Assembly: GCA_004321915.1 (NCBI GenBank) | Contig: SCQE01000081.1 | Coordinates: 1-64,000 of the forward strand | Direction: 5' to 3' | Length of the DNA: 64,000 nt | From: Nitrospirota bacterium | Lineage (GTDB): Bacteria > Nitrospirota > Thermodesulfovibrionia > Thermodesulfovibrionales > Dissulfurispiraceae | Shown here: positions 153 through 12,949 of the stretch, one piece after another | How positions within the stretch are numbered: the first letter of the stretch is position 1 | Layout: the number at the start of each line of letters is the position of its first letter | Translations under genes and position numbers: made by a program | The notes under the pieces: model-generated | The model's input: the letters and a program-made list of their open reading frames with translations, nothing else | Told to the model about the DNA's origin: nothing | Databases searched by the model: none

Positions 153-533
153 TCAGCATGACTGTCTCCCTCTGTAGGCTATTTTTATCTTCTCTACCAA
201 TTCATCGAGTTCTATCGGCTTCAGGCAGTAATCATTAGCGCCGCATTCCATGCTTTGCCGGCCCGCATGCATTGAGGCATGGCCCGTAAGCAATATAACT
301 ATCGCAGAAGGCCTCTTCTGCTTGATTTCTTTCAGGCATTCTATTCCGTCTCTGTCCGGCAGCATTACATCCAGCACTGTCACTTGCGGCCAATCGCTCT
401 CGATAATCTCAATGGCCTCCGAGCAGGTGGTCGCGCTCCGGACATTGTAACCGCGGCGTGTCAGACGCTTAGTCGTTATCTCCAAAAAATCCTTTTCATC
501 ATCAACAAGAAGTATATTGAACTTATCACTCAT
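153..533 (-). CDS. Stand-alone response regulator receiver protein
   Basis: This is a 126-residue receiver (CheY-like) domain with no output domain. The acidic pair D11/D12, phospho-acceptor D55 in LDVMLPD, T83 and K105 followed by Pro are all present, so it should accept phosphate. Its ATG overlaps the stop of the upstream PEP-synthase-like gene (ATGA), and an AAGGAGA ribosome site precedes it, so the two are translationally coupled. The kinase partner is probably one of the two Cache kinases nearby (inference). Possible outputs are protein-protein control of the PEP-synthase-like enzyme or a relay step. Confidence 0.9.
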   Translation of the reverse strand: MSDKFNILLVDDEKDFLEITTKRLTRRGYNVRSATTCSEAIEIIESDWPQVTVLDVMLPDRDGIECLKEIKQKRPSAIVILLTGHASMHAGRQSMECGANDYCLKPIELDELVEKIKIAYRGRQSC

Positions 534-3082
534 GTTACGTTCTCCTTTGCCGGTTTAACTATTTTCTCCAAGTCAGCCAGAAGGCTCTGGCGGTAACTAT
601 CGACCATGCCCTGATCGCCCATCACCATATCGATCTGACGGGTATGGATAAGCAGATACCCGAGGACCTTCAGTCGTTCGATAAGAAAAGGCACGGGCTT
701 TTTCTCGATCCGGGCGGCCAGCGAATCGGACTTCTGCTGGACACGGAAGTCATACTGTTCCAGTATGTCCTTTATAAGGTTCACCCGTATAAACCTGCGG
801 TTCTCGTCGGCAGCGCCGCCTTTAAACTGAAAACTGACATAGTTTTCGGTAAGGAGATCGCTCAGGTGCGCCTCGGCCAGAGAGAAATGATAGCCCAGAC
901 GCACGCTCAGGTTGCAAAAATTCCTAGAGATGAGAAAATAGCTTTTTGATGCCATGGATGAGCGTACGGCAGGGTCAAGACTCGGATTCATGGTCGATTG
1001 AAAAAGGACAGATCCGAAACCCTTCAAATCGACAGGCGGCGGTCCTTTCCATGCCACGGCAGTCATGCCCTCCCATATTGCAAGCATAGGCAGAGAGACA
1101 ATGTCTTCTATGCGGACCCACCTGTCCTTCATATCCAGCCCTTCCCGAAAACCGTCTTCCAGATTTATCACCCACCACTGCAAGGGTATATCTCCGGCCA
1201 GTTGCTTCGCCCCCTTCTCGTCAAACCCGAATCTTGAACTGAACGAGAACATCTCGGTCACGGCCTTCTCATGGCAGAAACGGGTAATATCATGAAAAGT
1301 CTCACATGAAGAGGGCCTGAAATAGGGCGATGCCGGATTGGTCAGGTTAAGCGGAGTTATGAGCCTGAGCACCTCTTCGAGCAGTTTATAAACAGGACTG
1401 CCTGCCATTAAATTGGAAGGCGGTCCGGCTTTTTTAAGCAGGTCATCCCGACGGCCTGAATATATCCGGCGGCCCGATGAGTCAACCGTAATCATGTCGC
1501 CATTCCGGAGTATTTCTGTGGCATGCGCGATGCCGAAAATAGCGGGGATCCCGAATTCGCGTGAAACAGTCGCCAGATGCGCCGTAACATGACCGGTCTC
1601 GCTGACTACGGCAGCGGCACGGTTCAGGAGGGTGGCCCAGTCAGGCAAAGGGTGCGCTACAACAAGGACTGCGCCCTCAGGAAACTGTAAGAGGTCTATG
1701 TTTGAACGGACAATATGCACCGGGCCGCAAGCGACCCCTGCGCTGGCAGAGACCCCCCCGGCAAGCAGAGACGGTTGGGTTTCATCAACGTCTATACTCT
1801 CGGTCTCACCGTCCTGAACAGGCGCTGCCTGTGCAAGCGGCCGGCTCTGCAATATAATTATCCTTCCGTCACGGTCTATGGACCATTCGGTGTCCTGCGG
1901 TGTGCCGAAATGCCCTTCCAGACGGACTGCGATACCGGCCAGTTCAGCTGCCTGACTGTCCGACAGAGGGGAGGCGTCCTTGACCCTGAGCTCTCTGGCA
2001 AGGACCTCATGCGGGCCATTGCGCGATACCTTGAACATATCTGTCAGCGCCCTGCCATCCACCACCTGACTTGCAAGTCCGGGGGCGGCATTAATAATGA
2101 CCCAGTCGCTGCGCGGGTCACGAGGGGAGCGGGAATACATGACTCCGCTTACAACGCCGTCGACCATCGCCAGACAGCCAACGCACATGACCACATCCTG
2201 ATGCCGGAAGCCCCGCTGCATGCGATACACAATGGCCTGACTTTTGTATTTGCTGGCCACGATCTCTTTGTAGGTGATCCCAAGCATATCATCCGTAACA
2301 TTCAGCTGCGTCCTGTACTGTCCTGCAAATGAGATATTGCCGCTGTCCTCGCCCAGCGCACTCGAACGCATAGAGACCAGCACCCTGCCGTTGCTTCTTG
2401 CGGCCAGCTCTTCATACCGGCGAATGATAAGCTGTTCCAAGTCTTCGGGCAGTGGGGCATTCGCAATCAGTTGCTGGATCGAAGCGCTTGTGGTGTAAAG
2501 GTCTTCGAGGTCAGCGTCATCCATAAGTTTAAGCCGGCGGTTTATCTCGTCCTGAAGCTTGTTCGAATCCATAAAGTATTTTGTTGCGGCGGCAGTGATG
2601 ACAAAGCCGTCCGGGACATTGAGGCCGACCCTGTTGCGTATTTCGCCCAGATTGGCCATCTTCCCGCCGGCTTGGTCGGTTGAATGGATACCGACCTCAT
2701 CCATCGAAAGCACGAACTTTCTCCCGGCAATTTTAGGCTGGCGGGATAGTATCTCTTCGATCTTCCCTGAAACATTGTCGAAGACCTTGCTGAGCCCGCC
2801 ATATTTGCCGTTCGAAAGCTCATGCAGGTTCCGGACCATTTTATAAATATTTACTGTCAAGGCGGTACAGTGGCCCCTGACAAATGCCATGCTGAAGGGC
2901 TGCCCCTCACGCAAGGTCTTGTCCATGTCCGCCATAAGCTCAAGCGCAATATTATTGGCAGTCAGCAGAGACCGGAAGCTCTTGTAATGGTCCTGAAATG
3001 ATCTGCGAAGGTGAAGCGCCTCTGCCTCGGATTTTTCTTTGTTCAGGCAAAAGAACTTCTTTAAGGCGTCTATTATCATCAT
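530..3082 (-). CDS. PEP synthase/PPDK-like phosphotransferase with atypical C-terminal domain
   Basis: This 850-residue protein has about 130 N-terminal helical residues of unknown role. A pyruvate phosphate dikinase ATP-grasp domain follows at about 135-415, with GGKMANLGE, RSSALGEDS at 239-247 and a closing EWSIDRDG...LQSRP at 399-415. The phosphohistidine swivelling domain covers about 445-545, with the expected histidine H502 in TAHLATVSREFGIPAI. The last roughly 290 residues do not show the PEP/pyruvate TIM-barrel signatures of true PEP synthase. ATP-dependent autophosphorylation of H502 is therefore expected from the family, but the final acceptor is unknown; rifampicin phosphotransferase and related enzymes show that this architecture can be repurposed. 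No good ribosome site precedes the ATG. The gene lies downstream of an intrinsic terminator and is coupled to the receiver at 153-533. Confidence 0.75.
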   Translation of the reverse strand: MMIIDALKKFFCLNKEKSEAEALHLRRSFQDHYKSFRSLLTANNIALELMADMDKTLREGQPFSMAFVRGHCTALTVNIYKMVRNLHELSNGKYGGLSKVFDNVSGKIEEILSRQPKIAGRKFVLSMDEVGIHSTDQAGGKMANLGEIRNRVGLNVPDGFVITAAATKYFMDSNKLQDEINRRLKLMDDADLEDLYTTSASIQQLIANAPLPEDLEQLIIRRYEELAARSNGRVLVSMRSSALGEDSGNISFAGQYRTQLNVTDDMLGITYKEIVASKYKSQAIVYRMQRGFRHQDVVMCVGCLAMVDGVVSGVMYSRSPRDPRSDWVIINAAPGLASQVVDGRALTDMFKVSRNGPHEVLARELRVKDASPLSDSQAAELAGIAVRLEGHFGTPQDTEWSIDRDGRIIILQSRPLAQAAPVQDGETESIDVDETQPSLLAGGVSASAGVACGPVHIVRSNIDLLQFPEGAVLVVAHPLPDWATLLNRAAAVVSETGHVTAHLATVSREFGIPAIFGIAHATEILRNGDMITVDSSGRRIYSGRRDDLLKKAGPPSNLMAGSPVYKLLEEVLRLITPLNLTNPASPYFRPSSCETFHDITRFCHEKAVTEMFSFSSRFGFDEKGAKQLAGDIPLQWWVINLEDGFREGLDMKDRWVRIEDIVSLPMLAIWEGMTAVAWKGPPPVDLKGFGSVLFQSTMNPSLDPAVRSSMASKSYFLISRNFCNLSVRLGYHFSLAEAHLSDLLTENYVSFQFKGGAADENRRFIRVNLIKDILEQYDFRVQQKSDSLAARIEKKPVPFLIERLKVLGYLLIHTRQIDMVMGDQGMVDSYRQSLLADLEKIVKPAKENVT

Positions 3083-3182: not shown

Positions 3183-3872
3183 CTAATGCTCAAGCTTCAT
3201 GCCCCAGCCTTCAAACATAAAGAGTATGGCAAAGCCGTACCACATGGTATATATGACGTATCCTGCCAACGAAATAACAACCATAACGATCTTTTCCTTT
3301 ATGTCCGTGGCAACTATACCGTAGTAGTTATAAGAAGGTTCTATCGCCTTTGTCATTATCTGGTAAAAGAGTTTGGCTTCCTTAAACTTACCTTCTTTAT
3401 TCATATTGGTTTCAGCCGACTTCATGACGGTCCACCAGTCATACATGACCTGCTTTTCGTCATACCCGTATTTATTCTGGTTGATGGCCTGCCCGTTGTT
3501 GTTAAACATTGCATCGGCATCGACAAGGACATTGTCAAAAATCTTCCCCATGTCGCCGCTGACCTTGACGTTTTTGCCTTCAACCGTTACCGTGGCCTTG
3601 GCCGCTTCAAAAAGCTTTGCCATCCGGGTTGCCTGTCCCGGATCTTTTGCCTGAACAGAGAATTCAATCTGCTGTCCTTGGAACGGTTCGGTCTTCTTCT
3701 TTACAGCCGGGATGTAATATGATGATTTTTTCGAAATAGTGTTATACAGATTGTCCATGTAGTCCAGCAGGTTCTTCCCTTCAAACACAGGGGAAAGCAG
3801 GACGGCAAAGACCGCCCAGAAGGCTATAAACAGCACTACTCCAAGTCCGAATTCCTTTTTGTTAGCAATCAT
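3183..3872 (-). CDS. Membrane protein paired with TauE-like transporter
   Basis: This 229-residue protein has a transmembrane helix near residues 10-30, an extracytoplasmic region of about 160 residues and a second helix near 193-217, ending in a short tail. I do not recognise the soluble region. It contains two predicted alpha/beta stretches and an aromatic-rich segment (YDWWTVMK). Its ATG overlaps the TAA of the transporter gene by one base (TAATG), and GAGGGGG lies just upstream, so the two are made together. An accessory or substrate-gating subunit for the exporter is the simplest reading (inference). Confidence 0.7.
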   Translation of the reverse strand: MIANKKEFGLGVVLFIAFWAVFAVLLSPVFEGKNLLDYMDNLYNTISKKSSYYIPAVKKKTEPFQGQQIEFSVQAKDPGQATRMAKLFEAAKATVTVEGKNVKVSGDMGKIFDNVLVDADAMFNNNGQAINQNKYGYDEKQVMYDWWTVMKSAETNMNKEGKFKEAKLFYQIMTKAIEPSYNYYGIVATDIKEKIVMVVISLAGYVIYTMWYGFAILFMFEGWGMKLEH

Positions 3873-5161
3873 TAGTGCGCCCCCTCACTCTTAAGTTGTT
3901 TCATATTTTTGAAAAATGTAGCAAAGACCCAGATAGAAAAAATACTTATTACTACAAAGAAAACGTAAATGCCGATATCCTCTAGGATCTTGCCTGTTGC
4001 CGGAGATATGCTTATGATATCCATCTTTCCGAGCTTGACAGGTAAAGCAAAGAACCTGTTCACAAAGCCGGCCATGACCGCAACGGCATAAAAGCCGCGA
4101 ATGGTCGAGCCGGGGACCACCTTGGTCACAAGCGACCCTATCTGGATGCCTATAAGCGAGCCGAGCAGCATGCCCATCGCAAGGGTGTAGAAGATAAATC
4201 CATAGATCGCATATTGGCCGAGACCTGCATACCCTGCGGTAAACACTATTTGGAAGATGTCTGTCCCGACCGTTGTGGCTGATGAAACGCCGAGCATATA
4301 GACAAAAATAGGGAAGGTCAAAAAGCCGCCGCCCACGCCCATAATGGCCGCAGCAAGGCCTACCAGCGCTCCGCTCAGGACAAGAAAGATGGCCGATATT
4401 TTTCTGCCGCCCGGAACAACGCCCTGATCGAAATGGAGCATAGGAGCAAGGTTTATGGACTGGATCTTCTGGGCCAAACCTGTCATAGACTCGTCAGCCT
4501 TGACACTATGGCCTTCTGTTTTAGCTGAAGCTGCCGCAGGCTTTCTCGATTTTAAAAAGTCTATGAGGGAGTAAAAACTTAGAAAGCCGAGCATAAAGAC
4601 ATATATGCTTGTGATAAACGCGTCGCTCAATACAGGATTCAGTTCATAGAGCGTCCTGTTTATATACCCTCCGAGGGTCGCCCCGCCTATGGACCCTATA
4701 AGAAAGGTCACTGCCAGAGAAACCGAGATATTGCCGAGCTTCCTGTGCAGTACGCTGCCCATAATCGCCTTTGCAAATATATGAAACAGGTCTGTGCCGA
4801 CTGCCAGAATACCTTTGACACCTGCGCTCATAAGGGCGGGTGCGATGATGAAACCGCCGCCCGCGCCTATGCATCCGGTGATCAGTCCTGCTGCTATGCC
4901 TACGCCTATCGAGGCCAGAAATATTGTGTTCGTGTAAAACGAGGGGCAATAAGTGTTCTTGCCGCCTAATACAGATGGCAGCGCTCCGGCAACCTCGTCG
5001 GCAAAAGCTATGCCGCCCAGTATTACCGGCAGCAGCAGCAGTCCAAAGACAGCAAGCCGCTTCGGTTCGCGCAAAATACGGTTTGATACATCGAGTTCCC
5101 ACTTTGCGTGGGCGCGGGCACCCATCATCATGAAATGCCCAAATTCCTTAAAAAAGCTCAT
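3872..5161 (-). CDS. TauE/SafE family anion exporter
   Basis: This 429-residue multi-span inner-membrane protein is built from two inverted halves typical of the TauE/SafE (DUF81) family. The first half has GCIGAGGGF at 96-104 and GTDLFHI at 122-128; the second has GVGGGF at 275-280 and GTDIFQI at 299-305. A soluble linker of about 45 residues, rich in Ala, Lys and Ser, joins the halves at 205-250. Family members move sulfite, sulfoacetate, taurine-derived anions or sulfate; the substrate cannot be read from the sequence. It is larger than the usual 250-270 residues because of the N-terminal extension, the linker and an extra C-terminal helix near 395-415. It lies in an operon with sensor kinases, so its expression probably follows an extracellular signal. 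Confidence 0.88.
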   Translation of the reverse strand: MSFFKEFGHFMMMGARAHAKWELDVSNRILREPKRLAVFGLLLLPVILGGIAFADEVAGALPSVLGGKNTYCPSFYTNTIFLASIGVGIAAGLITGCIGAGGGFIIAPALMSAGVKGILAVGTDLFHIFAKAIMGSVLHRKLGNISVSLAVTFLIGSIGGATLGGYINRTLYELNPVLSDAFITSIYVFMLGFLSFYSLIDFLKSRKPAAASAKTEGHSVKADESMTGLAQKIQSINLAPMLHFDQGVVPGGRKISAIFLVLSGALVGLAAAIMGVGGGFLTFPIFVYMLGVSSATTVGTDIFQIVFTAGYAGLGQYAIYGFIFYTLAMGMLLGSLIGIQIGSLVTKVVPGSTIRGFYAVAVMAGFVNRFFALPVKLGKMDIISISPATGKILEDIGIYVFFVVISIFSIWVFATFFKNMKQLKSEGAH

Positions 5162-5192: not shown

Positions 5193-5654
5193 TTATTTTC
5201 TCGTGTCAATGACATGAGAACTCTGAGAGCAATCTGTTCTATTAGCGGCCATAAGCAGCTTTTCAAAAAGAGACTCGAACTCCACAGGCTTCATCAGATA
5301 ATCGACAGCGCCGTTCTTAATACCTTCGACGCCCTCGTTTACCGATGCATGACCGGTCAAAATAATCACCCTTGTGTCAGGCCTCATTGTTTTTATTTCA
5401 ACCAGAGTGCTATTTCCGTCCATATCAGGCAATTTCATGTCGAGCAGCACCACATCGAATTCTCTGGCGCAGATCTTTGAAATCGCCTCCTCCCCGCTTA
5501 ACACACCTTCGCATTCAAGCCCCCTGCGCCTGAGTCTTTTCATGAGAGTATGGATAAACTCTTTCTCGTCATCCACAACCAATACGCTGAACAAAGGGAC
5601 CGGATGGTTGTCCGTCCCGGCATTCTTAACTTGGGCCCCCATAATACCGGACAT
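5193..5654 (-). CDS. Stand-alone response regulator receiver protein
   Basis: This 153-residue receiver has a 20-residue N-terminal leader and no output domain. The D28/D29 acidic pair, phospho-acceptor D72 in LLDMKLPD, T100 and K122 (MKPVEF) are intact. The ATG directly abuts the TAA of the histidine kinase gene at 5655, so this is very probably its cognate partner. M5 is a possible later start. It is close in sequence to the receiver at 12566-12949, which sits next to the paralogous kinase. Confidence 0.9.
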   Translation of the reverse strand: MSGIMGAQVKNAGTDNHPVPLFSVLVVDDEKEFIHTLMKRLRRRGLECEGVLSGEEAISKICAREFDVVLLDMKLPDMDGNSTLVEIKTMRPDTRVIILTGHASVNEGVEGIKNGAVDYLMKPVEFESLFEKLLMAANRTDCSQSSHVIDTRK

Positions 5655-7331
5655 TTAATGTGCAGGCAGCATGACCGTGAATATGCTGCCCCCCTCCTTT
5701 CCGTTTCCTGCTTTAAGGTCACCGCCAAGCCTCTGCATAATGCTGAAAGAAATGGACAATCCGAGCCCTGTGCCCTTACCCGGCGACTTGGTGGTATAAA
5801 AAGGATCAAAGAGCTTTTTTATCGAATCCGGAGACAGACCGGGGCCCGAATCGGCAAACTCGGCTATGACATGGCCGTCATTGTTACGTGTAGATATATC
5901 GATAACACCGTCCTGTCCTATTGCATCTATGGCGTTGTTCAGAATATTGAGGAACACCTGCTGAAGTTGAGCGGCGTCCGTAATAACATGCATCAGGCCC
6001 TGTTCAAAGAAATAGCGCAGTGTAATGCGGTGCGCCTTGGCCTCATTTGCAAGCAGAGAGGCTGTATCTTCGATAAGCCGGTTGAGGTCTATCTCCTTTC
6101 TTTCATAGCCGTTTGATCTCGAAAAACCGAGCAGTCGATGTGTGATTTCTCCGGCCCTTTTTACATTGCCGCGTATTTTATTGATCGAGTCCCTGTATTC
6201 ATCATAATTTTTCAGCCGCTTATCATCCTCATCGTCAAGAAGCTCGTCTATCCATCCGGCTTGGGTGGTAATTATCTGCAGCGGGTTGTTGATCTCATGC
6301 GCCACACTGGCGGCGAGCCTTCCGACAAGCGCCATCTTTTCGACCTGACGCATACGGTTGTTCATGGCCATTCTTTTTTTGTCGGCCTCCTCTATCTTGT
6401 TCACCATCGACCTGACCAGCAGTGTAGCCACTATAAGGATTATCAGTGAGGCGCCCGCGATAATGAGCATGTCCCGCTTACGGGCCGTATAAAATTCGGC
6501 GAGAGAGGTGTTTATGTCGGTCTTAAGAACAAGGGTCCAATCGCCTCTGTTTATCGGCGCCATTGCATAAATATAATTGTCGGTAAAGCGGACCGAAGCC
6601 CTGTCACTGGAGATGAGCATCGCGAGTTCTTCCGCAGATAATGCTTTGCCCCCAAGCAGGCTGGGTGTCTGCAGCTCTCCTGCCCTGTTAATGATATAAG
6701 CGTCTCCGCCCGGTCCGACTTCGGCGCTTGCCAGAAGCGAATGAAAGAATTCTGAATTAATGGTCGCCCGCAATATCCATGTCCTTGCGGGGTCGGTCAC
6801 GGCCGCGATAAAATGCGGCTCATTCCGGTATCCTCTAAATACATCACTCACATACCTGCCGCCCTGCATGACCTCGGCAAACCATTCCGCACCCGCATAA
6901 TTTTTGTCCGCAAGCTGACTCTTATACGGGCCTACATAGGCCAGATGCCTGCCTCTCCGGTCTATTACACCGAGGTCAACAATTACACCGCTTTTGTTCA
7001 TGGCCCCGAACAGCTTTTCGAGGTTTCCCTGAACACTCAGGTACTCGAGGCTGTACAGATTCGTAAAGCCGGACAGGAGGTTTTCCTGATTTTTAAGGAA
7101 GAGATCGATTATCTCTTTTCTGCTTCCTGCAAGCCCTGACAGCTCAAGCGCTGTTTTTTGAAGCCATGATTTTTTGTAATAATGGGACGCTGTCCAGCTT
7201 ATTATTACAAGGGGCACGACAGAGACAACTATAACCACAAGCACGAAAAGCTGTTTCTGCCAAGCGTAGTAGCTGCCGCTGGATTTCATTTCGAGGGCCT
7301 TCAGACTTACAGTGCCGCTGCACATTTTCAT
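5655..7331 (-). CDS. Cache-domain sensor histidine kinase
   Basis: This 558-residue membrane kinase has a transmembrane helix near 28-47, an extracytoplasmic double-Cache-like sensor at about 50-285 and a second helix at 288-306. A short coiled linker without a clear HAMP domain leads to HisKA with H345 in VAHEINNP. The ATPase domain has its N box at LNNAIDA (465-471), DSGPG near 494 and TGLGLS at 521-526. All catalytic residues are present. The start is supported by ACAGGAG about 10 bases upstream. The sensor shares GYRN-PHF and surrounding residues with the kinase at 10821, so the two probably read the same or a similar small ligand. Confidence 0.92.
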   Translation of the reverse strand: MKMCSGTVSLKALEMKSSGSYYAWQKQLFVLVVIVVSVVPLVIISWTASHYYKKSWLQKTALELSGLAGSRKEIIDLFLKNQENLLSGFTNLYSLEYLSVQGNLEKLFGAMNKSGVIVDLGVIDRRGRHLAYVGPYKSQLADKNYAGAEWFAEVMQGGRYVSDVFRGYRNEPHFIAAVTDPARTWILRATINSEFFHSLLASAEVGPGGDAYIINRAGELQTPSLLGGKALSAEELAMLISSDRASVRFTDNYIYAMAPINRGDWTLVLKTDINTSLAEFYTARKRDMLIIAGASLIILIVATLLVRSMVNKIEEADKKRMAMNNRMRQVEKMALVGRLAASVAHEINNPLQIITTQAGWIDELLDDEDDKRLKNYDEYRDSINKIRGNVKRAGEITHRLLGFSRSNGYERKEIDLNRLIEDTASLLANEAKAHRITLRYFFEQGLMHVITDAAQLQQVFLNILNNAIDAIGQDGVIDISTRNNDGHVIAEFADSGPGLSPDSIKKLFDPFYTTKSPGKGTGLGLSISFSIMQRLGGDLKAGNGKEGGSIFTVMLPAH

Positions 7332-7404: not shown

Positions 7405-7851
7405 TCATCCCTTCATCATTTTGCGGGCCGTCTCATGCTCACCCGCTTCGGCAAAAGCAGCTGCCGCCATGCTGTCCTTCAGCTTCATGGCCTTTGCGGC
7501 CGCCTTTATCCGCTCGACAAGCAGCTCGACATCCACCGGTTTTTTCAGATAGTCGAAAACTCCGAGTTGCCGCGCTTCGGATTCGTCAAGGTCATTGCCG
7601 TGACCCGTCTGAATTATTACTTGGATATTCGGATAAGACTTCCTTACCCTGCGCAGGACCTCCATACCGTTAATGCCCGGCATCTTCAGGTCAAGGATCA
7701 TGATGTCCGGCTCTTGGTCGTTTACAATGCTGATGGCCTGTTCTCCATCAAACGCGGTATTGCTCTTGAGGTCTCTCATCTCAAGACGCTCAGAGAGGGT
7801 CCTGATAAAGTCTTCCTCGTCGTCAACTAACAGAATTTTGATGTCATCCAT
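7405..7851 (-). CDS. Receiver protein with C-terminal FAEAG motif
   Basis: This 148-residue protein is an intact receiver (D10/D11, D54 in LDLKMPG, T82, K104) followed by a short helix and a terminal motif around residues 128-146: MAAAAFAEAGEHETARKMM. The tail matches a motif that occurs once in the next gene and twice in the small protein at 8434-8736. In shape (small residues, then A-x-x-G, then E-x-A) it resembles one turn of a TPR helix pair, so it may be a docking or dimer patch (inference). It lies 73 bases upstream of the kinase gene in the same operon. Confidence 0.88.
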   Translation of the reverse strand: MDDIKILLVDDEEDFIRTLSERLEMRDLKSNTAFDGEQAISIVNDQEPDIMILDLKMPGINGMEVLRRVRKSYPNIQVIIQTGHGNDLDESEARQLGVFDYLKKPVDVELLVERIKAAAKAMKLKDSMAAAAFAEAGEHETARKMMKG

Positions 7852-7881
7852 ACATTCCTCCTAGTCAGGTTGCGGCCTCTG

Positions 7882-8409
7882 TCACTTTTTTTTGTCATCG
7901 TCCTGCTCCGGCGAGGAGCTGCCGGCGTCGCTCATATAATCTATGGCAGCATCAAATTCGCCGGCTTGAGCAAAGGCCGCTGCTGACATCGATTCGCTGA
8001 ACATTTCCATAAAGGATAATCCGCGTTTCTTATGCAAGAGTTTCTTTCTGCGTTTGAAGGCCTCGGTTATCTTTTTTTTCAATATGCCTGTGTCGCAGGG
8101 AACTATAATTTCATCGTTTGCGCCCGCCTGCATGGCGACAATGGATGACCTGATGTTATCGTGGCTGTTAATGAGGATTATTTCCGCACCCGGCCGGTTT
8201 TCTCTTATATGTTTCAACAGGCTCAGGGAAGTGTCCGGCGAAAGTCTGATATCGAGCAAAGCCACGTCTATATGTTCCTGTTCCATCAACACCACCGCGT
8301 CTTGCTCGGTGTTGTGATGGAATAGGCCGAAGCCCCAAAGCGAAAAGGTTTTTTTTAGAGTTTGGGCGAAGTTATAATCGCCGGTTTCAAGAAAAACAGC
8401 CGTTTCCAT
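7882..8409 (-). CDS. Degenerate receiver protein with FAQAG motif
   Basis: This is a receiver-fold protein of about 175 residues. Numbering here begins at the upstream TTG at 8418. The presumed phospho-acceptor D56 (LLDIRLS) remains, but the N-terminal acidic pair is replaced (LETGD), the conserved Thr is Ser (INSH) and the conserved Lys before Pro is lost (VPCDT). It is therefore probably a pseudo-receiver that binds partners without normal phosphorylation. Residues 143-157 carry the motif MSAAAFAQAGEFDAA found in its neighbours, followed by an acidic and lysine tail. I prefer the ATG at 8409; a TTG at 8418 is also possible because AAGG lies close to it. Confidence 0.75.
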   Translation of the reverse strand: METAVFLETGDYNFAQTLKKTFSLWGFGLFHHNTEQDAVVLMEQEHIDVALLDIRLSPDTSLSLLKHIRENRPGAEIILINSHDNIRSSIVAMQAGANDEIIVPCDTGILKKKITEAFKRRKKLLHKKRGLSFMEMFSESMSAAAFAQAGEFDAAIDYMSDAGSSSPEQDDDKKK

Positions 8410-8433
8410 AGCACCCAAGACCTTAAAACTTCC

Positions 8434-8736
8434 TTATAATATTGCCTCGATCGGCATTGTACCGTAGGTTATGCGAATACCCTTAAGGCCTATAGTCTCG
8501 AGAAAGTCCGACGATCCATAATTTTTGACCGGTTTTAGATTCATTATTTCGACCGCCTCTTCAGGAAGTCCTGCTTCGGCAAAGGTCACCGACATAAAAA
8601 TCCTGTCGAACCAAGTCAGCTGATTGTTTCCTTTTTTGGGGGTTGGCATCATCTGTCTTGCTGTCTCAAACTCACCAGCCTCTGCAAAGGTGACAGCGTT
8701 CATCCAACTGCTGAATGTGTCGAATATCCGTTTCAT
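8434..8736 (-). CDS. Small protein with two FAEAG repeats
   Basis: This 100-residue cytoplasmic protein has no signal peptide. It consists of two copies of a unit of about 35 residues: WMNAVTFAEAGEFETARQMM at 11-30 and FMSVTFAEAGLPEEAVEIM at 47-65. A 35-residue tail follows. The same unit caps the two receiver proteins encoded next, which argues for a physical link between the three proteins. I know no function for it. It is the first gene after the sigma-54 promoter and has a strong AAAGGAGG ribosome site, so it should be well expressed when the operon is on. Confidence 0.8.
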   Translation of the reverse strand: MKRIFDTFSSWMNAVTFAEAGEFETARQMMPTPKKGNNQLTWFDRIFMSVTFAEAGLPEEAVEIMNLKPVKNYGSSDFLETIGLKGIRITYGTMPIEAIL

Positions 8737-8774: not shown

Positions 8775-8791
8775 AGCAAAGCCCATGCCAA
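8775..8791 (-). promoter_or_regulatory. Sigma-54 (-24/-12) promoter
   Basis: The minus strand reads TTGGCATGGGCTTTGCT, matching the RpoN consensus YTGGCACGRNNNTTGCW at every defined position except one (T for C after GGCA). The GG and GC elements are correctly spaced. Transcription should begin near 8764, giving a leader of about 28 bases with AAAGGAGG before the ATG at 8736. The divergent gene encodes a sigma-54 activator, which supports the assignment. Confidence 0.85.
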
Positions 8792-9062: not shown

Positions 9063-10466
9063 ATGAAACAAAACGAATCACAAGGACTTATGTCAGGCCA
9101 AATAGAGATAATCGATATAATGAACGGCATTCCCCATGGAGTGGCGCTTATTGATAAACAGCTTCGAATCTTCAGCATGAACAGAATCCTTGAAGTTATG
9201 ACGGGCTACTCCACTCAGGCGGTTCAGGGAATTGAATGCAATTATGTTCTGCGCACTGACCGGGATGAATGGCTTAACAAGGCGCTCAATAATGGAGGCG
9301 AAACACTGATCTGCGAGGGAAGCGTCATCGATGCAAACCGCAAAAGAGTTTCGGTAAGAATTACCGCTTCACCGCTTAAAGGGCGGGAGGGCCTAGATGA
9401 AAGCCTGCTGCTGGTCATCGAGGACATCTCTATGCTGAAAGAGATGGACATCAAACTTCAAGGCAGCCCTGAGAAAAAGGCGCTTCTCGGGAACAGTCCA
9501 AAACTGCAGGAGATTATAGAACTCCTGCCTGTCTTTGCCTATACGGATGCTACCCTCCTTATCACCGGCGAAACCGGCACCGGTAAGGACCTGCTGGCAG
9601 AGGCCATACACCGCAGTTCAAAGAGGTCAAAGTACCCGTTTATAAAGGTGAACTGCGGGGCCATTCCCGAGACGTTACTGGAATCAGAACTGTTCGGGCA
9701 CGTTCGAGGCGCTTTTACCGGGGCCAACTCTGACAAGCCCGGGATGTTCAGACTGGCACAGGGAGGTACGCTTTTTCTCACCGAGGTCGGGGACCTGCCG
9801 CTGAAATTGCAGGTAAAACTCCTGACAGTTCTTGACGATAAAGAGTTTTATCCGCTCGGCAGTTCGAAAAAAACAAAAGCGGACATAAGGCTGATTACAG
9901 GCACGCACAGGGACCTCAAACAGCTGCTGGATGAAGGCAAATTCAGGGAAGACCTTTATTACCGGTTGAATGTACTACGGGCACATATGCCTTCACTTAG
10001 AGAACGGGGCGACGATGTGCTCCTGCTTATGAACCATTTCCTTAAAGAGTTCAATAACAATCTTGGAAAGAGAATAAAGGGCTTTGCGAGTTCTGCGATC
10101 GATTATCTTTTGCGTTATGAATACCCGGGCAATGTCAGGGAACTGCGCAATATTATCGAACACGCGGTGAATATATGCCAAGGGAATATCATTCAAATGG
10201 CACACCTGCCTGCTTATATCCTTTCTGCCGGAAATAGCAATTCAGGCAAAGATAAAAAAAGCGGAGGGCAGCTTTCTGAAACCAAAGAAGAGCCGACGGT
10301 ATTTAGCGCTTCCAAGAGGGAATTTGTAAGCTGGCCGGAAATAGAAAAGGGCCGGATACTCGAGACGATGATGGCAACCGGAGGCAACCGCAGCGAAGCG
10401 GCCCTGAAACTCGGCTGGAGCCGCAGCACCCTATGGAGGAAGATCAAGCATTATGGCTTGGAATAA
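9063..10466 (+). CDS. Sigma-54-dependent activator, PAS-AAA-Fis type
   Basis: This 467-residue protein has a PAS-like sensor at about 15-125 in place of a receiver. The AAA+ domain has Walker A GETGTGKD at 169-176 and the sigma-54 contact loop GAFTGA at 216-221. A Fis-type helix-turn-helix lies at about 430-467 (GNRSEAALKLGWSRSTLWRK). In Walker B the usual Asp-Glu is Thr-Glu (GGTLFLTEVGD, T240-E241), which may alter ATP hydrolysis. Without a receiver domain it is not directly controlled by phosphorylation; PAS ligand binding or binding by the stand-alone receivers are options (inference). It is the likely activator of the promoter at 8775-8791. The ATG at 9090 (residue 10) is an alternative start. 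Confidence 0.9.
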   Translation: MKQNESQGLMSGQIEIIDIMNGIPHGVALIDKQLRIFSMNRILEVMTGYSTQAVQGIECNYVLRTDRDEWLNKALNNGGETLICEGSVIDANRKRVSVRITASPLKGREGLDESLLLVIEDISMLKEMDIKLQGSPEKKALLGNSPKLQEIIELLPVFAYTDATLLITGETGTGKDLLAEAIHRSSKRSKYPFIKVNCGAIPETLLESELFGHVRGAFTGANSDKPGMFRLAQGGTLFLTEVGDLPLKLQVKLLTVLDDKEFYPLGSSKKTKADIRLITGTHRDLKQLLDEGKFREDLYYRLNVLRAHMPSLRERGDDVLLLMNHFLKEFNNNLGKRIKGFASSAIDYLLRYEYPGNVRELRNIIEHAVNICQGNIIQMAHLPAYILSAGNSNSGKDKKSGGQLSETKEEPTVFSASKREFVSWPEIEKGRILETMMATGGNRSEAALKLGWSRSTLWRKIKHYGLE

Positions 10467-10793: not shown

Positions 10794-10820
10794 CTACCAA
10801 GAGTGACTCGGAGGTCGAAT

Positions 10821-12569
10821 ATGGGACTTAATTTGCGGGACAAGTACCTTAATTTTTACAGCAGCGACGATTCGAACCTCTCGATCAAAGAGAGGTATCT
10901 GACGCTGAGCAGGAGCTTCCTCATAATCATGCTTCTGGTCACAATTGTTCCGCTGAGCATCACGACCGCCTTGAGCTATTTCCAGTACCGTTCCCTGATA
11001 AGACAGGAGACGATCAATAATGCGCAGTGGAATGCCGAGAGCACCCGGCAGGGCATCGAGTCCTTTATCGATAAACTCCGGGCCATGATCCAAGTTGTTT
11101 CCGAATCGTACAGATACAAAGATCTCTCGGTACAGGAAAATCTGGACAAAGTATTCGAAAACCTCAAATCAAAAAACAAGGGGATTGTCGACTTGAGCGT
11201 AATCGGTCCTGACGGTGTTCAGCAAGCTTACTCGGGTCCTTTCAACCTTAAAGGCAAGGATTACAGCGACAGCCCTTGGTACCAAAAAACCCTGACAAGA
11301 AAGGTCTATGTAAGCGAGGTCTTCCTCGGATACCGTAATGTGCCGCATTTCGTTATAGCCATAAGCAAGAAGGTCTCAGGAGAAAACGGTTATTGGGTCT
11401 TAAGGGCGAGCATAGACACGGACACACTGGACCAATTCCTTGCCGGGGTCAGAAATGAAAACCTGGTGGATGCATTTCTTATAAACAGCAAAGGCGCTCT
11501 CCAGAGTTCTTCCCACAATTACGGCAACGTGTCGAGCCAGTCGCCTGTATCGGTAGAACGGCTGCCGAAAAACAAAGACATTCTGACGGTGGAAAACAAA
11601 CAAGGCTCCAAGTCCATGGTCAATGTCGTTGCCCGGATAAATGAGAGTCCTTGGTTTCTGGTGCTTGAACAGTACGGATATGCGGACAAAAAAACATGGG
11701 TCCTTTTTAAGCGGGAGTTGCTTGTTATCTATGTGGTAAGTTTTGTCGTGATCATCTGCCTGACCTTTTTCATCGCCTCTTTTCTTACATCAACCGTTCG
11801 CAAGGAGGAGGAGACAAGGGAAATCATACTTGCAGAGAGCGAACACGCCAACAAGTTGGCCTCGATAGGCAGACTGGCTGCAGGCATAGCCCATGAAATC
11901 AATAATCCTTTGGCCATAATCAATGAAAAGGCCGGACTGATGAAAGACCTCCTGCAGGTTTCTAATGATTTTAAATACAAGGACAAATTTCTCATGCAGA
12001 TCGACGCTATGGAAAACGCGGTAAAACGGAGCAGGACCATAACCCACAGGCTTCTGGGATTTGCCAGAAGAATGGATATCAAGCTCGAGCCCGTAGACAT
12101 TAACAGTGTGATTACTGAGGTCCTCGGCTTTCTTGACAAGGAGGCCGCATATCAGGAGATCAGGATTGATCAGGATTTACAGCCGAATCTGCCTGACATC
12201 ATGAGCGACCACGGGCAATTGCAGCAGATATTCATGAACATAATCAATAACGCCATAGATGCGGTCGGCAACGGCGGTATAATCCAGATATCCAGCAGGC
12301 AGATTGACACAAAAACGGTCAGGGTCGATATTTGCGACAACGGTCCGGGTATGCCGCCGGAGGTGCTGAAAAAAGTCTTTGAGCCTTTTTTTACTACGAA
12401 AAAAGGCTCTGAGAGACAAGGCACAGGTCTCGGACTTTCAATAACATATGGACTTATAAAGAAACTTGGCGCGAAGATATCCGCCAGCAGCGAGGTTGGC
12501 ATCGGAACGACGTTCACAATCCTGATCCCTATAAGGTCCGTATCTGCAGAGGGAGGAACAGACAGATGA
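10821..12569 (+). CDS. Cache-domain sensor histidine kinase (paralogue)
   Basis: This 582-residue kinase starts at the ATG at 10821, preceded by GGAGGT; an in-frame GTG at 10803 lies upstream of that ribosome site and is unlikely. It has transmembrane helices near 32-52 and 300-322, with a double-Cache-like sensor between them. HisKA has the phospho-acceptor His in GIAHEINNPLAI (about 358). The HATPase domain has NNAIDAVG, DNGPGMP and TGLGLS. The sensor repeats the GYRN-PHF segment and the GVI-type strand pattern of the kinase at 5655-7331, so the two are duplicates. Its stop overlaps the next ATG (ATGA). Confidence 0.92.
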   Translation: MGLNLRDKYLNFYSSDDSNLSIKERYLTLSRSFLIIMLLVTIVPLSITTALSYFQYRSLIRQETINNAQWNAESTRQGIESFIDKLRAMIQVVSESYRYKDLSVQENLDKVFENLKSKNKGIVDLSVIGPDGVQQAYSGPFNLKGKDYSDSPWYQKTLTRKVYVSEVFLGYRNVPHFVIAISKKVSGENGYWVLRASIDTDTLDQFLAGVRNENLVDAFLINSKGALQSSSHNYGNVSSQSPVSVERLPKNKDILTVENKQGSKSMVNVVARINESPWFLVLEQYGYADKKTWVLFKRELLVIYVVSFVVIICLTFFIASFLTSTVRKEEETREIILAESEHANKLASIGRLAAGIAHEINNPLAIINEKAGLMKDLLQVSNDFKYKDKFLMQIDAMENAVKRSRTITHRLLGFARRMDIKLEPVDINSVITEVLGFLDKEAAYQEIRIDQDLQPNLPDIMSDHGQLQQIFMNIINNAIDAVGNGGIIQISSRQIDTKTVRVDICDNGPGMPPEVLKKVFEPFFTTKKGSERQGTGLGLSITYGLIKKLGAKISASSEVGIGTTFTILIPIRSVSAEGGTDR

Positions 12570-12949
12570 GTAAGACCAAGGTGCTTATAGTGGATGATGA
12601 GGAGGAGTTTTCAAACACCCTTGCCGAGAGGCTGTGTTTCAGGGGTTTCGACGCGGTTTCGGTCGGGAATGCGGATAAAGCGATTGCGGCAATTAGAAAC
12701 GATTGGGTCCCTGACGTTGCCTTGTTGGACCTTAAAATGCCCGGCCTCAGCGGTCTCGATACGCTCGAAATGATAAAAAAACTTGACTTGGGCATAGAAG
12801 CGATCATGATAACAGGACACGGTTCCACTGCCAGCGGCATAGAAGGAATGAAGCGCGGACTTTTTGACTACCTGATGAAGCCGGTAGACATAAACGAGTT
12901 GGTAGCCAAGATAAATGAAGCGGCAAAGAAGAACTATGATAAGACATAA
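12566..12949 (+). CDS. Stand-alone response regulator receiver protein
   Basis: This 127-residue receiver has an intact D10/D11, D55 in LLDLKMPG, T83 and K105 (MKPVDI), with no output domain. Translation is coupled to the upstream kinase, which should be its phosphodonor. It is most like the receiver at 5193-5654, in the same position relative to the other paralogous kinase. That pairing supports duplication of a kinase-receiver unit on both sides of the activator gene. Confidence 0.9.
   Translation: MSKTKVLIVDDEEEFSNTLAERLCFRGFDAVSVGNADKAIAAIRNDWVPDVALLDLKMPGLSGLDTLEMIKKLDLGIEAIMITGHGSTASGIEGMKRGLFDYLMKPVDINELVAKINEAAKKNYDKT

Follow-up and report, generated by a model that had tools for sequence, protein, structure and literature searches.

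The window, a 64-kb stretch of a Nitrospirota genome, carries a minus-strand operon that begins with genes for a mini-protein and two receivers and goes on to genes for a histidine kinase, a TauE/SafE permease, and a PEP-synthase-like protein; a sigma-54 activator, a second kinase, and its receiver are encoded divergently (Table 1). Of the features by which we recognized a sigma-54 regulon, a -24/-12 promoter and a neighboring AAA+ activator, the operon has both.

Table 1. Features of the tagged operon and its divergent neighbors in the 64-kb window
Feature	Position	Strand	Evidence or remark
Operon of the window	8736 -> 530	-	
Two-unit mini-protein, 100 aa, first gene of operon	8434-8736	-	ORF; 21 orthologues aligned
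Unit copy 1, in 100-aa protein	8632-8727	-	leave-out profile E 9.3e-14
Unit copy 2, in 100-aa protein; slot-specific form FAEAGLPEEA	8524-8619	-	leave-out profile E 1.3e-7
Pseudo-receiver	7882-8409	-	PF00072 E 4.5e-11; 21 orthologues
Unit copy 3, C terminus of pseudo-receiver; slot-specific form FAQAGEFDAA	7921-8013	-	leave-out profile E 2.5e-5
Intact single-domain receiver	7405-7851	-	PF00072 E 3.9e-28; phosphorylation residues invariant
Unit copy 4, C terminus of intact receiver	7408-7491	-	leave-out profile E 4.4e-13
dCache sensor histidine kinase	5655-7331	-	PF02743, PF00512, PF02518
Third receiver, without unit	5193-5654	-	PF00072 E 5.9e-27
TauE/SafE (TSUP) permease, likely target	3872-5161	-	PF01925 E 6.1e-35
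Membrane protein without Pfam family, recurrent beside permease	3183-3872	-	ORF; homologues at other loci
PEP-synthase/PPDK-like protein without unit	530-3082	-	PF01326 E 9.1e-80
Divergent PAS sigma-54 activator	9063-10466	+	PF00158 E 7.2e-68, PF02954
Second histidine kinase of conserved cluster	10803-12569	+	local profile match and synteny
Receiver partnering second kinase	12566-12949	+	local profile match and synteny
Sigma-54 promoter TGGCATG-GGCT-TTGCT (TGGCATGGGCTTTGCT)	8775-8790	-	38 nt upstream of ATG of 100-aa gene

The unit and its copies in the window

The original prediction, made from the DNA sequence, was that four copies of a unit of about 18 residues occur here, the 100-aa protein having two of them and the two receivers that follow having one each at their ends. 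We built a leave-out profile solely from units of the other cluster type (112 units, all window-type loci excluded) and searched the window with it. This profile matches exactly these four copies in the 64 kb, and no further full match better than E 8 was found among the 1141 ORFs of the window. In shuffled controls (6000 proteins) the top score was 8.7 bits, compared with 20 to 47 bits for the four real copies. The copies are thus homologous, and the shared unit is real, but it is about 27 residues long, and the predicted 18 are only its core; its consensus is kkFEdxMxAvtFAEAGEfeTAreilk. An alignment of 184 cores gives the pattern [FL]-E-x-x-[MF]-x-A-[AVI]-[TA]-F-A-E-A-G-E-[FHW]-[ED]-T-A-R-x-[ILM]-[LM], in which the F and the G are present in 100% of the cores, the A that follows F in 99%, and another two alanines in 95%. 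A ligand- or metal-binding site was ruled out, as neither Cys nor His is conserved in the consensus. When the 3.6-Mb host genome was searched with the unit profile, seven units were found, the four of the window and three in two other clusters; the next match had an E value of only 1.95.

Individual slots keep their own variants of the unit. Copy 2 of the mini-protein orthologues mostly reads FAE[AE]G[LM], and the pseudo-receiver slot reads FAQAG in nearly all homologues. Because the slots differ in this way, the sequences suggest that each copy keeps a distinct contact, or they may simply be old orthologous positions. The mini-protein also has a conserved C-terminal tail, FLxxxGLxGIRxTYG (8437-8511 in the window), which was seen only in two- and three-unit proteins.

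The two tagged receivers differ in their active-site residues. In the intact receiver, the full set that we looked for (Asp10-Asp11, Asp54, Thr82, and Lys104) is invariant in 18 homologues. In the pseudo-receiver, for which the ATG at 8409 is a likelier start than the TTG at 8418 given in the ORF list, the phospho-acceptor Asp is invariant in 21 homologues; in the same homologues, an invariant Asn stands in place of the Thr/Ser and the conserved Lys is missing, so that the set is incomplete. Its description as degenerate was therefore apt. So was the idea that the unit is reused as a tag. In about 20 other genomes, too, a small protein with two units comes before a degenerate and an intact receiver; it may, as was predicted, be a scaffold for the two.

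The unit looks like a TPR-like helical hairpin, as had been proposed under the name of a single TPR-type helical turn. In an AF2 model of the 100-aa protein there are two helix-turn-helix pairs (helices 2-19/23-28 and 42-54/58-65), predicted with low confidence (mean pLDDT of 63). Tandem units are spaced by 34 aa, the TPR period, in 22 of 46 pairs, a count in which type I orthologues (see below) share their spacing by descent; in the window the spacing is 35 aa. Weak, sub-threshold matches to TPR_4 (PF07721) were found for 16 of 73 units, with a best E value of 0.012. Foldseek searches with the 100-aa model were dominated by PPR and TPR chains, with a nonsignificant best E value of 1.2, and the Z scores from VIA, up to 5.4 and 4.8 for the designed TPR 1na3, are within noise for helical proteins. 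At the sequence level, identity with ordinary TPRs was rejected: none of the unit proteins, the 100-aa protein included, passes a TPR model at its curated cut-off. What the unit shares with TPR and PPR repeats (TPR_4, TPR_6, and 1na3) is the helix-turn-helix, the small residue-G turn, and the 34-aa tandem period of multi-unit proteins. However, the unit is mostly one hairpin per protein, its consensus is much tighter, and the hydrophobic spacing of its first helix is different. It serves to tag other domains instead of building up a solenoid; most carriers have a single unit and none has more than three, and we took three or more stacked repeats to define a solenoid.

No relevant model of the unit family was found in Pfam, NCBIfam, PADLOC, or PHROGs, and a sequence search of the PDB gave no match up to E 10. 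In open-access papers we found nothing on point about the motif or about TauE/TSUP together with USP, sigma-54, kinase, or regulator. Thus, the helical tag is not described in the databases used or in the open-access literature searched.

Carriers and conserved neighborhoods

The unit occurs in several phyla. Whole-genome samples contained it in 78 of 246 Nitrospirota, in 37 of 297 Desulfobacterota (the phylum of a Desulfobulbaceae genome), and in 10 of 299 Pseudomonadota (that of a Thiotrichaceae genome). Scanning genome contigs, we obtained 214 related places and kept 80 loci; these are mostly from Nitrospirota and Desulfobacterota, but Thiotrichaceae and Latescibacterota, among a few others, are also represented.

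We found the unit in at least seven types of protein, where it may be N-terminal, internal, or C-terminal. Mini-proteins have one to three units; intact receivers and pseudo-receivers carry the unit at the C terminus; USP-like proteins and a small membrane protein carry it at the N terminus; in USP-fold proteins it is inserted after the second strand; and in a PEP-synthase-like protein it is likewise an insertion. The unit is detachable. An alignment of two adjacent PEP-synthase paralogues at one locus (L141, 7393 and 10007) showed that one has the inserted unit stretch and the other does not, and the unit of the small membrane protein is present in Desulfobulbia and absent from the Nitrospirota homologues. 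PEP-synthase-like proteins recur beside these permeases, as at 530-3082 of the window and at both positions of L141. One carrier from the host genome itself (L008, 317-796) has a USP fold: its AF2 model matched 4wny (E 1.2e-5) and 1mjh (E 4.3e-5) in Foldseek with a probability of 1.00, and it shows a helical pair at the unit, with low confidence there. The Usp family model (PF00582) does not hit this protein; it matches two other carriers below threshold (L007 and L086) and one above the cut-off (L094).

The unit-bearing loci fall into two types of cluster. Type I, that of the window, has genes for a sigma-54 AAA+ protein, a histidine kinase, and a response regulator on one strand; on the other are a two-unit protein, a pseudo-receiver with unit, a receiver with unit, a histidine kinase, a response regulator, and TauE. 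In type II, the commoner type, a histidine kinase and an NtrC-type regulator with an AAA+ domain adjoin a one-unit mini-protein, a USP-like protein with unit, TauE, and a tandem USP, often with the small membrane protein; its units are on USP-like proteins, and no receiver is tagged. The host genome has type I in the window and USP-type clusters on two further contigs (C129 and C131). A tag reserved for receivers was therefore ruled out, and the original interpretation is too narrow: the unit is also on USP-like proteins, the small membrane protein, and the PEP-synthase-like protein. Frequent occurrence in unrelated proteins had been named in advance as a point against a docking tag. Literally, this is what we found, but the unrelated carriers sit in the same kind of cluster, and the idea of a tag is thus strengthened rather than refuted.

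We then counted the neighbors of the units; some of the loci are related, and the counts are therefore not fully independent. In 23 Nitrospirota genomes, with a unit list that is the best-scoring part of the Nitrospirota whole-genome scan, TauE lies within 2 kb of 58 of 76 units and within 6 kb of 69, where about 3.1% would be expected. Four of the seven more distant units are on contigs on which no TauE was found. Conversely, 44 of the 139 TauE genes in these genomes are linked to units. At 40 further sites, one per genome and picked blind to their neighbors, there was a receiver at 38, a histidine kinase at 37, and a sigma-54 AAA+ protein at 32; TauE was present at 32 and a DASS/CitMHS-type permease at 6, so that 37 sites had either or both. 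What stays constant around the carriers is a permease of the TSUP or DASS type together with a two-component and sigma-54 control unit. Sigma-54 promoters are enriched, being found upstream of 46 of 155 unit operons, that of the window included, compared with 1.07% of random windows.

Clusters that lack TauE often have an unrelated anion permease instead. Among clusters chosen because TauE was not adjacent, CitMHS with TrkA_C or Na_sulph_symp (DASS) was recognized in six scanned proteins. A CitMHS transporter of about 600 aa with TrkA_C domains replaces TauE at L138, L140, L149, L151, L155, L181, L182, and L186. At two window-type loci (L139, 8321-10418, and L150, 7655-9754), the replacement is a DASS sodium:sulfate-type symporter with a separate neighboring protein, in which a CBS domain was confirmed in L150. 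The exceptions are 3 of the 40 sites, one of them on a short contig, which have no permease; kinase and regulator genes are still there.

Several loci have further peculiarities. Homologues of the membrane protein encoded at 3183-3872 of the window directly follow TauE at L142, L144, L163, L169, L171, and L192. At L142, two genes for unit proteins flank a sodium/calcium exchanger gene (5637-6641). In two Thiotrichales loci (L045, 6696-8636, and L066, 6713-8632), TauE and the tandem USP form one continuous ORF.

The host genome has dsrA, and so do 71 of 78 unit-bearing Nitrospirota, compared with 38 of 168 others. Within the class to which the window belongs, units occur in 58 of 87 dsrA-positive and 2 of 5 dsrA-negative genomes. 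This association is confounded by phylogeny, and therefore we do not take it as independent proof.

A possible assembly tag for control of permeases

What might such a tag do? On balance, we favor the explanation that the unit is an assembly tag of sulfur-respiring bacteria that gathers regulators into a complex controlling sulfur-oxyanion transport at or near the permease, which we infer from genome context. The carriers would be made from sigma-54 promoters beside a TSUP (TauE) or DASS/CitMHS permease, and their hairpins would bring them together in a single complex at this permease or close to it. The histidine kinase of the cluster would phosphorylate the intact receiver, and this would set the activity or stability of the transporter, as would the nucleotide state of the USP-like proteins; the sigma-54 activator would set its amount. 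Sulfur oxyanions such as sulfate or sulfite are the candidate substrates, a role predicted only from the families of the permeases (PF01925; PF00939/PF03600). A contact between USP and permease is plausible because of the fused TauE-USP-USP ORF in Thiotrichales and the precedent of TeaD and TeaABC, discussed below. A bolder form of this explanation, which we consider doubtful, is that single TPR-like hairpins, one or two per carrier, pair into a solenoid in trans and so form a shared scaffold on a sulfur-oxyanion permease that is itself interchangeable.

The main competing explanation has the tag docking regulators onto the histidine kinase or the sigma-54 activator, so that receivers and USP-like proteins share a kinase and the permease is a regulated target gene only. 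The signaling side could be the partner because the three sites without a permease keep kinase and regulator genes; kinases (37/40) and receivers (38/40) are as constant as permeases overall. At L177 and L179, the profiles used recognized no permease, although units, kinases, and AAA+ proteins are present. However, the unit is also found on the small membrane protein adjacent to TauE and on the PEP-synthase-like protein, which are not two-component outputs, and it stays in place while the permease families are swapped. We therefore regard docking on the signaling side as possible but unlikely.

It is less probable still that the unit is a degradation or localization signal, read by one host factor such as a protease adaptor or chaperone and giving the products of the operon a common fate. 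This would fit a short sequence that marks otherwise unrelated products of the same operon and is placed at either end of the protein. However, the unit also lies inside folds, and most of a mini-protein is made of two or three tandem copies, whereas degrons tend to be terminal and under less constraint; in addition, the slot-specific variants are kept. That the units are ordinary TPR repeats, their co-occurrence being a coincidence of family abundance, is very improbable: the weak TPR_4 matches and the 34-aa spacing point that way, but all unit proteins stay below the TPR cut-offs, the residues are far more tightly conserved than in a TPR (F 100%, G 100%, A 95 to 99%), and elsewhere in the 3.6-Mb genome the profile has no match below E 1.9.

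An assembly tag at a permease would have partial parallels. Dockerin-cohesin systems and encapsulation peptides are modular tags, in which one short conserved module is found on otherwise unrelated proteins of one assembly. We identified no receptor domain for the unit, in contrast to these systems, and it may pair with itself. The USP fold is encoded together with a permease in TeaD of TeaABC (3hgm) and in the USP domain of KdpD (7ji4), and a title cited in PMC9453808 (Schweikhard et al. 2010) states that the USP TeaD regulates the TRAP transporter TeaABC. However, these proteins lack the helical unit, and no common tag links them to receivers or mini-proteins. TSUP (CysZ/TauE) and DASS are two of the four families of candidate sulfate transporters of sulfate reducers, and each of the 44 genomes in that survey had TSUP proteins (Marietou et al. 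2018, PMC5840216). The permease families and the kind of organism are the same as those described here, but a search of that paper for universal stress or two-component partners found none mentioned.

The unit is a marker for those TSUP and DASS paralogues that are likely to be under two-component, USP, and sigma-54 control (44 of 139 TauE genes in our sample), and it makes that control directly testable. To our knowledge, the control of oxyanion uptake or export in sulfate- and sulfite-metabolizing bacteria is poorly known, and the TSUP permeases, which are abundant there, are uncharacterized. A module common to a receiver, a pseudo-receiver, proteins with a nucleotide-binding fold, a membrane protein, and an enzyme would be an unusually compact route to a regulatory complex.
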